Shown here in pieces: positions 8,954 through 55,660 of a DNA stretch of 64,000 nucleotides. The notes beneath the pieces were generated by a model, which was not told the DNA's origin, searched no databases, and was given only the letters and a program-made list of their open reading frames with translations. The position numbers and the translations under genes were made by a program. The DNA comes from Salisaeta longa DSM 21114 (GTDB lineage Bacteria; Bacteroidota; Rhodothermia; Rhodothermales; Salinibacteraceae). Location of the stretch: contig NZ_ATTH01000001.1 of assembly GCF_000419585.1 (NCBI RefSeq), positions 1,076,005-1,140,004 on the forward strand. The letters run 5' to 3'. Each line of letters starts with the position of its first letter. Positions within the stretch are counted from its first letter, which is position 1.

Positions 8954-9050
8954 AAGGGGGCACTGCAGCTGGTGGAGGGCAAAAGAGACAACGCAAGGTG
9001 TACTTGCACCATCAAGGTAACAATACCTTCACCCAACGTCAACCCGTGGC

Positions 9051-9442
9051 ACCAGGGCCAGGGCAATCGCATGAGTAACCGTGCACACGACACGTACGCT
9101 TCAAAGACGGCCCCTGCCTCCGAGGCTTGTTGTCGTCTTTTTGCAAATCAGTCCTGAACAACGTCAGAACGAATAAGCACGATTGATGCAACGGCCCTGG
9201 ACATCTTGGAAGGGTGCGTATTCTTTCATACATGGAGATCGCACCAATGGCATGACCTTCGGCCCCACCACGGGCATGACCTTCGGCCCCCGCGTCGCTC
9301 GCATGCGCACCAGTGGCATGACCAAGGCCCCTCACTCCTCGCGATGACAAGGAGGGCACTGCTTTTTTATGCGTTGCACGTGCAGTTGGCCAAACCCGCC
9401 CGAACAGCCATCTGGACCATACATTGATGCGATTGCCCTGGT
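9051..9442 (-). mobile_element. MITE-like dispersed element, copy 1, with terminal inverted repeats and target duplication
   Basis: A 392-bp non-coding segment whose ends are inverted repeats: CCAGGGCAATCGCAT at 9058-9072 and its exact complement ATGCGATTGCCCTGG at 9427-9441. It is flanked by a perfect 13-bp direct repeat, GTCAACCCGTGGC, at 9038-9050 and 9443-9455, as expected for a target-site duplication. The right copy of the duplication carries the stop codon of the glycosyltransferase gene. Inside are two 24-bp tandem units (9242-9265, 9266-9289). The sequence, read in reverse, is shared with the elements at 18122, 23278, 28982 and 55385. No transposase is encoded. Confidence 0.75.
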
Positions 9443-9443
9443 G

Positions 9444-10328
9444 TCAACCCGTGGCGCCGCGTCGCTGAATGGCGCGCAGTCCGCGCACGGTGCCCATCGA
9501 CCACCCCACACGCCACATCCACCGATGCAGCGCGGCGCGCGATCGCACCTCTTTGAGGAGCTTCCGTGCGTACCAGCGCACGCTTTTTCGGAACTTATCC
9601 CGATACGCCGGCTGGCGCGCTGCATCCTCAATACCATACTGAACCCGCAGTTGCTTGTAGTGCTTGGCATACCGATGGGCCTGCTGGAAGGTAGACCAGA
9701 GCGTGGTTCGGCACCGCATGTGCATGGTGGCACCTGGCACGAACGTCAACGGAATGCCGTGCTGTTGCAAACGCCAGCAAAAGTCGACATCCTCAAGCGC
9801 CTGCAATGCCTCTTGGAAGCCGTGCACCGCATCGAAGGCGGCCCGCGTGATGCCCATGTTGCTGCTTGCAGCAAACACGAACGGTTGTTTTCCTTGCAGG
9901 CTGTTGCGCTGCGTTTGCGCACGATCGCCGATCACCCATGACGGGTTGAGCCGCTCAAAGTCGAGGGCTCCGGCCACAAACGACGCCCCCGACCGGAGCG
10001 CTGCATGCATCGATGCCACCCAGTCTTTACCGGCGACGTCGTCGGCATCACAGAACAGCAGATAGGGGGCCTGGGTGCTGCGGGCGGCGGCGTTGCGCGC
10101 ATACGCGGCGCCGCGCTTCGCCGATGCATCCACGCGGCGGACGGGCACCGACGTCTGAAACCGCCGGACGACCGCCGCGGTGTGATCGGTAGATCCGTTG
10201 TCGGCAACGATCACTTCGAAGGGCTGCGCGCCAACCTGCTGCTGCAACGCCTGGAGTTGAGCGGGCAGCGTGGCGGCTCCGTTGTAACACGGTATGATGA
10301 TGGAGACATCAGGTGGAGGCATGATCAT
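9444..10328 (-). CDS. Family 2 glycosyltransferase
   Basis: Protein of 294 residues from MIMPPPDVS. The longer frame upstream is arginine-rich and unlike any family member. It starts DVSIIIPCYNGAATL with VIVADNGSTDHT (nucleotide-sugar binding), has the DxD-type metal site LLFCDADD, and the acceptor-side EDVDFCWRLQQHG. This is a GT-A fold inverting glycosyltransferase that adds sugars to a lipid- or polysaccharide-linked acceptor on the cytoplasmic side. There is no membrane helix. The acceptor is unknown and there are no other glycan genes next to it. Its final codons coincide with the target duplication of the neighbouring MITE-like element. Confidence 0.88.
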   Translation of the reverse strand: MIMPPPDVSIIIPCYNGAATLPAQLQALQQQVGAQPFEVIVADNGSTDHTAAVVRRFQTSVPVRRVDASAKRGAAYARNAAARSTQAPYLLFCDADDVAGKDWVASMHAALRSGASFVAGALDFERLNPSWVIGDRAQTQRNSLQGKQPFVFAASSNMGITRAAFDAVHGFQEALQALEDVDFCWRLQQHGIPLTFVPGATMHMRCRTTLWSTFQQAHRYAKHYKQLRVQYGIEDAARQPAYRDKFRKSVRWYARKLLKEVRSRAALHRWMWRVGWSMGTVRGLRAIQRRGATG

Positions 10329-18121: not shown

Positions 18122-18640
18122 CAGGGCCATCGCATCAATCGTGCCGGTTCGCGCTGACGCCACTCAGGAGGGATGTGCAAAGTGGCGATACATGCCCCGC
18201 AAGCAGGAACCGCCGTTGAAGCGCTCAGGGCGGATGCACGATGACTCATGCAATGGCGCTGTCAGTATCCCCCGCTGATTGCATGGTGCGTTCCTGCTCA
18301 TCCGCGGAGATTGCCCTTCCAGGATGACCTTGCGGCCCCACCACAGGCATGATCTTCAGTCCCCACGCTCACTACGTTTGCTCGCAATGACAAGAGGAGT
18401 GAAATGCCGAAGCGATACGTGAATGGTTCAGAGGGCTGTTCCGGCGGGTTTGACCAACTGCACGCGCAACGCACAAAAAACCAGTACCCTCCTTGTCATC
18501 GCGAGGAGCGACCGTAGGGAGTGACGTGGGGGCCGAAGGTCATATCTATGATGGGGCCGGAGGTCATGCCCGTGGTGGGGCCGGAGGTCATATCTATGAT
18601 GCGATCTCCAGGTACGGGAAGGAACGCTCCATTGCGGAGA
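18122..18640 (+). repeat. Dispersed non-coding element, copy 2
   Basis: Starts with the inverted-repeat end CAGGGCCATCGCATCAAT. Its first part (18122-18261, 140 bp) ends in the related inverted sequence CATGCAATGGCGCTG. The second part holds boxes shared with the other copies: GGAGATTGCCCTTCCAGGATG, GATACGTGAATGGTTCAGA, CTTGTCATCGCGAGGAGCG and GCGATCTCC. A tandem array of three 24-bp units (18530-18601, consensus GGGCCGGAGGTCATATCTAT plus GATG) sits between the last two boxes. There is no coding frame. This accounts for the pckA-PHA gap of more than 600 bp. Confidence 0.75.
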
Positions 18641-23277: not shown

Positions 23278-24138
23278 GCAAGGCAATCGCATCAATTTGG
23301 ATTCGTACTAACGCCAATCAGGAGTGATTTGCAAAATGATGATGATATGCCTTTGAAGCATGGGCTGACTTTGAAATGCTCAGTGCGGATTCACGATGAC
23401 TCATGCGGTGGCTCTATCAGTACATCTCGCTTATTGCAATGTGCGGCAGGTTTTTGCTCGTTTGTGGAGATTGCCCTTTCAGGATGACCTAAAGGCCCCG
23501 CCACAGGCATGACCTGGAGGCCCCTACGCTCTCTGCATTCGCTCGCGACGAAATGAATGGTTGGCTGAAGGCTCAAACGTCGAGGCTTCAAATGAACGTT
23601 CGGGTGGATTTGCGCATCTGCACGCTCAACGCATGAAAAAGCAGTATGCTTCTTGTCATCGCGAGGAGTGAGGGGCCTTGGTCATGCCACTGGTGCGCAT
23701 GCGAGCGACGCGGCGATCTCCATGTACGAGCAGGAGCGGCCCATTGCGGAGATTGCCGCGCTCACTCCGTTCGCTCGCAATGACAATAGGAATGAAATGT
23801 AGAAACGATACGTGAATGGTTCAGATGACTGTTCGAACGGATTCGACCAGCTGCACGATCAACGCACAAAAAAGGAGCACGCTGCTTGTCATCGCGAGAA
23901 CTGAGCAGATGCGAAGGACACGGGGATGCCCGTGATGCGATCTCCATGTACGGGCAGGAGTGACCCATTGCGGATATCGCTCTTTGGAAGATGTCCAAGA
24001 CCGTTGCAACAATCTTGCTTATTCATTCTGACGCCGTTCAGGAATGATTTTCAAAAAGATGGTGAATGCCTTGGAAGCACAAGCCGTCTTCAAAGCGAAC
24101 GGGTCGTGTGCACGTTTACTCATGCTAATGTCATGGCC
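23278..24138 (+). repeat. Dispersed non-coding element, copy 3 (long, internally duplicated)
   Basis: About 860 bp without a credible gene. It begins GGCAATCGCATCAATTTGG and ends near ACTCATGCTAATGTCATGG, a decayed version of the inverted end seen at 9058. The GATACGTGAATGGTTCAGA / CACGCTCAACGCA / TTGTCATCGCGAG / GCGATCTCCATGTACG block occurs about twice, and the 140-bp end unit occurs at both ends (23278-23417 and about 23990-24138), so the copy looks like a duplication or nested insertion. It fills the gap between the M14 peptidase gene and lexA. Confidence 0.72.
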
Positions 24139-28875: not shown

Positions 28876-28981
28876 AGCCTGTGCGGCTTTAGGGGGCTTG
28901 AACGACGATTTCTTTAAGATACCGATGTGATCGCAATACCGCAACAATGAGCAATACCGCGATAATCAATGGTACGCTTCA

Positions 28982-29115
28982 GGGCAATCGCAGCAATCTC
29001 GGGGGGGCGCGCGCACCGCGTTCACTCGCAATGGCGAAAGAAGTGAAATGTAGAAACGATACGTGAATGGTTCAGATGGCTGTTCGGACGGATTTGGCCA
29101 CCTGCACGCTTAACG
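28982..29115 (+). repeat. Dispersed non-coding element, copy 4 (short fragment)
   Basis: Begins AGGGCAATCGCAGCAATCTC and continues through TCACTCGCAATGGCG, then GAAATGTAGAAACGATACGT and GAATGGTTCAGATGGCTGTT to CTGCACGCTTAACG. These boxes occur in the same order in copies 2 and 3. The 24-bp array and the CATCGCGAGGAG block are missing. The rest of the AcuB to GatZ-like gap (to 29267) shows nothing else. Confidence 0.65.
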
Positions 29116-29267
29116 TCCGGCATTGGACCACGGCGCATGGTCAAATCGTCGTCCGCCAGAATCATTCGCCCCGCCCCTTCGTGCCTCTATGCAGCAGGGC
29201 AAACCGCCGCCACAGCCGCGGCCCGCGCCCTTGCACGCCAACACCCTCCCTGCTCCGGTCGCTCTTG

Positions 29268-55384: not shown

Positions 55385-55630
55385 CTTTATCCGGTTCTGG
55401 AGATTGCTCAGCTACGGAATTTGCCACATACCTTCGGACCTCGCCCTGTCCTTCGCAATGACACTGCAAGAACTGCAAGGTAGGCTAGAAAGTGAGAAAC
55501 TGTTTGTAATGGCTCAGGTGGCTGCTCGGATTCATATCCGCAACTGCACGCTCGACGCACAAAACAAACAAATCCAATGTGTCATCGCGAGGAGCGAGCG
55601 TATGCGAGCGACGTGGCGATCTCCATGTCC
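55385..55630 (+). repeat. Dispersed non-coding element, copy 5 (partial, decayed)
   Basis: Shares the boxes TGGAGATTGC, CTTCGCAATGACA, AATGGCTCAGGTGGCTGCTC, CTGCACGCTCGACGCACAAA and TGTCATCGCGAGGAGCGAGC, ending CGACGTGGCGATCTCCATG. The 24-bp units present in copies 1 and 2 are absent; here CGACGTG runs directly into GCGATCTCC, which marks the site where the units sit in other copies. It fills the gap after the VWA-like gene. Confidence 0.65.
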
Positions 55631-55660
55631 GAAGAAGACCGCATCACGCTGGAGACAGCG

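Follow-up and report, generated by a model that had tools for sequence, protein, structure and literature searches.

A probable transposase-less mini-transposon with ISAs1-type ends at the 3' end of a glycosyltransferase gene in Salisaeta longa

The 392-bp segment at positions 9051–9442 of the window (the whole stretch of 64,000 nucleotides of Salisaeta longa DSM 21114 that was analysed) is very probably a non-autonomous mini-transposon of the ISAs1 type (probability about 0.9). It carries no transposase gene and contains only mechanical short open reading frames. An ISAs1-family DDE transposase, given in trans, would have acted on the CAGGG...CCCTG ends, and the element would have inserted just 3' of the stop codon of a glycosyltransferase gene with duplication of the target. 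In its full form the element consists of a 141-bp unit A_L, a hairpin/spacer array and a 141-bp unit A_R, with both units in the same direction. The present copy is a composite with A_L reduced to about 25 bp; this outermost part still provides the end. The features of the copy and of its relatives in the window are as follows.

9038–9050, no strand: left flanking direct repeat GTCAACCCGTGGC (sequence)
9051–9058, no strand: extra ACCAGGGC between the left repeat and the end, readable as AC followed by CAGGGC in 6-bp tandem duplication (comparison with other copies)
9058–9072, plus strand: left terminal inverted repeat, R-type end CAGGGCAATCGCATGAG (sequence)
9059–9199, minus strand: complete 141-bp terminal unit A of the right-hand type A_R; its inner end (9186–9199) is a degenerate CAGGGCCGTTGCAT (profile models, alignment)
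9226–9349, minus strand: hairpin module (P/Q) with the 24-bp near-repeats CACCANNGGCATGACCTTCGGCCC (profile models)
9364–9422, minus strand: spacer module D (profile models)
9416–9440, minus strand: A_L remnant of about 25 bp with the L-type end CAGGGCAATCGCATCAAT, fused directly to D (profile models)
9441–9442, no strand: GT between the right end and the right direct repeat (sequence)
9443–9455, no strand: right flanking direct repeat, holding the TGA (9444–9446, minus strand)
9444–10328, minus strand: glycosyltransferase gene, intact; likely start at 10328, open reading frame to 10517
18122–18622, plus strand: related copy that has lost its right terminal unit but keeps A_L, hairpins and D (profile models)
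23279–24133, plus strand: related full composite A_L - arrays - A_R; its outer flanks agree at 5/10 and no longer match (profile models, flank comparison)
28980–29118, plus strand: related fragment, L-type end (24 bp) with Q and D (profile models)
55395–55635, plus strand: Q-D-P hairpin/spacer unit without terminal units (profile models)

The earlier note on this DNA had described 15-bp inverted ends and a flanking direct repeat of 13 bp. Both are exact. The end CCAGGGCAATCGCAT at 9058–9072 has its exact reverse complement at 9427–9441, and GTCAACCCGTGGC is found at 9038–9050 and 9443–9455. Around the element the direct repeat stretches to a 15/16 match over 16 nt. A 392-bp frame was slid along the window and 63,520 positions were scored; the segment at this position is the only one flanked by a 13-bp repeat whose copies lie no more than 20 bp beyond its two ends. 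The terminal inverted repeat of 9051–9442 is exact over 15 bp from CCAGGG and lies within the range described for ISAs1 elements, which have inverted repeats of 14–22 bp starting with CAGGG and direct repeats of 10 bp (PMC11946415). The stop codon TGA of the glycosyltransferase gene (9444–9446) is located in the right direct repeat and the reading frame on the minus strand is undamaged, as had been proposed. In GTDB this glycosyltransferase is matched by distant homologues only. A search of 26 related genomes for an empty-site comparison gave no ortholog with at least 40% identity, and no orthologous (empty) site was found in the relatives compared.

The direct repeat does not abut the ends. 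The gap is 2 bp at the right CCCTG end and 8 bp at the left CAGGGCAATC end; the left gap also shrinks to 2 bp when CAGGGC, which is doubled there, is counted as a small tandem duplication. An abutting 10-bp duplication is absent from this copy (2/10 match), and the offset 13-bp repeat is found instead.

The same ends are found repeatedly in the family. The end motif CAGGGCAATCGCATSA (at most two mismatches) occurs 40 times, compared with a single occurrence of the reversed control. Besides the copy at 9051–9442 there are 16 end-to-end copies, for which the flanks of the outermost ends were compared. Flanking repeats of at least 8/10, exactly 10 bp long and abutting CAGGG, are present in 11 of these (three with 10/10, six with 9/10 and two with 8/10). 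The perfect 10-mers are CACAGCCCCC, TGTGAATGCC and CCTTTCGATT. Agreement between the flanks is 11/11 at base 10 and drops to 5/11 at base 11. Mis-paired flanks as controls reach at least 8/10 in 2 of 272 cases. Thus, a 10-bp duplication accompanies transposition in this family. The earlier note had asked for a genome-wide tabulation of flanking repeats around same-ended copies, and the case in which no other copy has one does not apply. Its expected duplication length of 13 bp, on the other hand, is not that of the family, and the copy at 9051–9442 is the exception.

A 431-bp query matches the 3.4-Mb host genome about 100 times, in some 40 clusters; in 30 relatives its matches are short and confined to one internal motif. 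Modules were defined by profile models of pieces of the element. The half-units L and R (66 bp each) together form unit A, which is 141 bp long and has the inverted ends CAGGGCAATCGCAT. Among 27 genomes of the taxonomic family this unit is present in the host only. As a conserved RNA fold, its pairing is essentially the terminal inverted repeat only (−0.9 kcal/mol), and its single-strand folds are no better than those of shuffles. The palindromic hairpin module has the arms P and Q (TGTCATCGCGAGGAG...GGCGATCTCC and GGAGATTGCC...CGCTCGCAATGACAA) and is combined with the spacer D. A complete copy has the order A - [hairpin - D - hairpin]n - A. Its two A units point the same way, and therefore one of its outer ends is an L end and the other an R end. 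Most copies are mosaics of 440–970 bp. In five copies, including the one at 9051–9442, A_L is shortened to its outer 22–56 bp. The interior of this copy recurs at 18122–18622, 23279–24133, 28980–29118 and 55395–55635, the four other gaps that the earlier note had pointed out, and its hairpin/spacer part is also present without A ends at many loci.

The flanks of single A units inside composites agree at 5/10 at most and show no duplication. Thus, the composite is the moved unit. Its outer ends are nearer to CAGGGCAATCGCAT than its inner ends (11.1 versus 9.2 of 14 positions, p = 0.001), and in most copies A_R has CAGGGCCGTTGCAT or a near match as its inner end. Three solo copies of A are present in the host genome (G000:C1:2302523–2302661, 1204028–1204167 and 2559264–2559404). 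Their flanking repeats match at 7–9/10, in two of them only after a 1-bp shift, and the first two of these units combine an A_L-like outer left end with a functional outer-type right end. The composites may tentatively be regarded as a single transposon, evolved and non-autonomous, whose direct terminal repeats are 141 bp long, although the odds are somewhat against it. The outer ends alone would have been kept functional, the inner ends would have degenerated in a common manner, and recombination between the units would have produced the three solo copies, like solo LTRs.

Tandem Q-D-P hairpin-spacer arrays with a period of about 200–270 bp and without transposon ends were also observed. They include G000:C1:2131309–2134545, 2140064–2141123, 950318–955209 and the unit at 55395–55635 of the window.

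The earlier note had proposed a search for an autonomous partner with matching ends; such a partner is present in relatives and absent from the host. Of 27 genomes of the taxonomic family, 15 contain the end motif, and the controls gave counts near zero. In the relative G008 an intact IS of 1306 bp lies between two such ends (L197 1501–2806, G008:C9:2023–3328). Its ends are CAGGGCAATCGCAAGAA (CAGGGCAATCGCA) and the end of the host family matches them at 13/14 positions. The target duplication is GCTACAACTG (10/10). The encoded transposase of 401 amino acids is assigned to ISAs1 (NF033564, 428.7 bits; PF13808 and PF01609). A partial second copy of this IS was observed at G008:C7:84356. Seven further ISAs1 elements within the order have 10/10 duplications. 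CAGGGC ends with perfect 10-bp duplications are found in ISAs1 ISs of G034, G015 and G029. Relatives also contain gene-less elements of 151–277 bp with the same ends and duplications of 9–10/10. Several of them share an asymmetry of the ends, with CATGA[AG]C at one end and CATCAA at the opposite end. Duplications of 9–11 bp are found around such elements, including an exact one of 11 bp. For roughly half of the end pairs in relatives, no clear duplication is seen at a length of exactly 10 bp. No similarity between the interior of the element and the ISAs1 elements was seen beyond the ends. Since same-ended copies carry target duplications and relatives have an autonomous IS with near-identical ends, the earlier view of a non-autonomous transposable element, as opposed to a plain palindromic repeat, is supported.

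The host genome (98.5% complete, three contigs) has no PF01609 (DDE_Tnp_1) protein and no ISAs1 match. Hence the partner is missing there and, judged from this absence, the family is probably stranded. We infer that the element was mobilised in trans by an ISAs1 transposase that has since been lost from the host genome. Its ends, the duplication at the level of the family and the partner in the lineage agree with an ISAs1-type MITE; the lack of a partner in the same genome and the duplication length of the copy itself do not. Therefore, the statement that the element works like an ISAs1-mobilised mini-element is stronger than the statement that this copy is a textbook member.

The 13-bp repeat is most readily read as an irregular target duplication. 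If the ends are taken as ACCAGGG...CCCTGGT, direct repeat and element would abut, the duplication would be 13 bp and the site before insertion would have contained GTCAACCCGTGGCGCC once. It is possible, but rather unlikely, that the repeat is instead a rearranged or carried-over donor flank of an ISAs1-type insertion that normally duplicates 10 bp. The offsets of 8 bp on the left and 2 bp on the right add up to 10 extra bp, the left end has CAGGGC twice, and the duplications of other copies are 10 bp long. However, the 13-bp repeat is exact, no other segment of this length in the window is flanked by one, and a single irregular insertion is simpler. Irregular lengths also occur elsewhere, with an exact 11 bp (CCGGGGAGGTG) at L179 2416–2659 (G032:C45) and about 8 bp at an ISAs1 IS (L272, G029:C1:4218154–4219239).

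Members of the IS231/IS4 group have CAGGG-like ends and duplications of 10–13 bp. A mini-element of this other DDE family would fit a repeat of 13 bp, but is very unlikely, as the ISs with matching ends in relatives encode an ISAs1 and not an IS4 transposase and the host has no PF01609 protein at all. Also very unlikely is a palindromic intergenic repeat of the REP/BIME kind that was dispersed through slippage or by a Y1 transposase of the RAYT type and whose flanking repeat is incidental: Q-D-P arrays without A ends exist at many loci and the host has one Y1_Tnp (RAYT-like) reading frame, but the A-ended copies have defined end pairs with 10-bp duplications and ends that match DDE-type ISAs1 elements, and Y1 enzymes are not known to produce target duplications. 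This origin is contradicted for the A-ended copies, not for the A-less arrays. RAYT was rejected as the partner, as the single Y1 frame has no link to the element ends.

This Y1 frame (L102:1147–1753, around G000:C1:2196152–2196758) contains an in-gene palindrome, GTAGGGATTCATCGCCGATGAATCCCTAC. A short motif (GGCATGACCTTCGGCCC / GGGCCGAAGGTCATGCC) is repeated in DNA of many related genera (L092–L101), once apparently within a Y1-transposase-like gene (L101).

The ISAs1-type mini-transposon was compared with known systems. It has CAGGG ends of 14–22 bp and the 10-bp target duplication in common with ISAs1-family ISs such as the G008 element and ISArsp11 (1306 bp, CAGGGCTGATGCAAAGTCG, 10-bp direct repeat; PMC6305408), but shares the ends alone and lacks the transposase gene. 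Like MITEs mobilised in trans by ISs, the family is short and gene-less, with terminal inverted repeats, target duplications and many intergenic copies; unlike usual MITEs, most copies are mosaics and the genome lacks the partner IS. In TIME-COMP2, two miniature elements in the same orientation also surround a core and the whole moves with a target duplication. That system is derived from Tn3, with 5-bp duplications and a gene-carrying core (PMC4133298), whereas here the ends are of ISAs1 type, the duplications are 10 bp and the core is a hairpin array. The BrickBuilt MITE of Porphyromonas gingivalis (PMC4596501) shares a repeat-array interior between leader and tail units. Its interior is a 23-bp minisatellite; here the units are hairpins and spacers of ~200–270 bp that also occur outside the element. 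A search of Rfam over the window returned one tRNA only, the plasmid collection gave no match, and literature searches by hairpin sequence and for MITEs in Salinibacter found nothing relevant and no report, respectively.

The element is a fairly ordinary mini-transposon, except for its mosaic relatives in the same genome, in which two mini-transposons surround hairpin arrays. The widespread intergenic 'palindromic repeat' of the host genome is thus in part a transposon family, with exact ends and a duplication length that are now defined and with the ISAs1 enzyme family as the most likely mover. Its composite build indicates that miniature elements can enclose a hairpin array to give one mobile unit, whose autonomous element is now absent from the genome.
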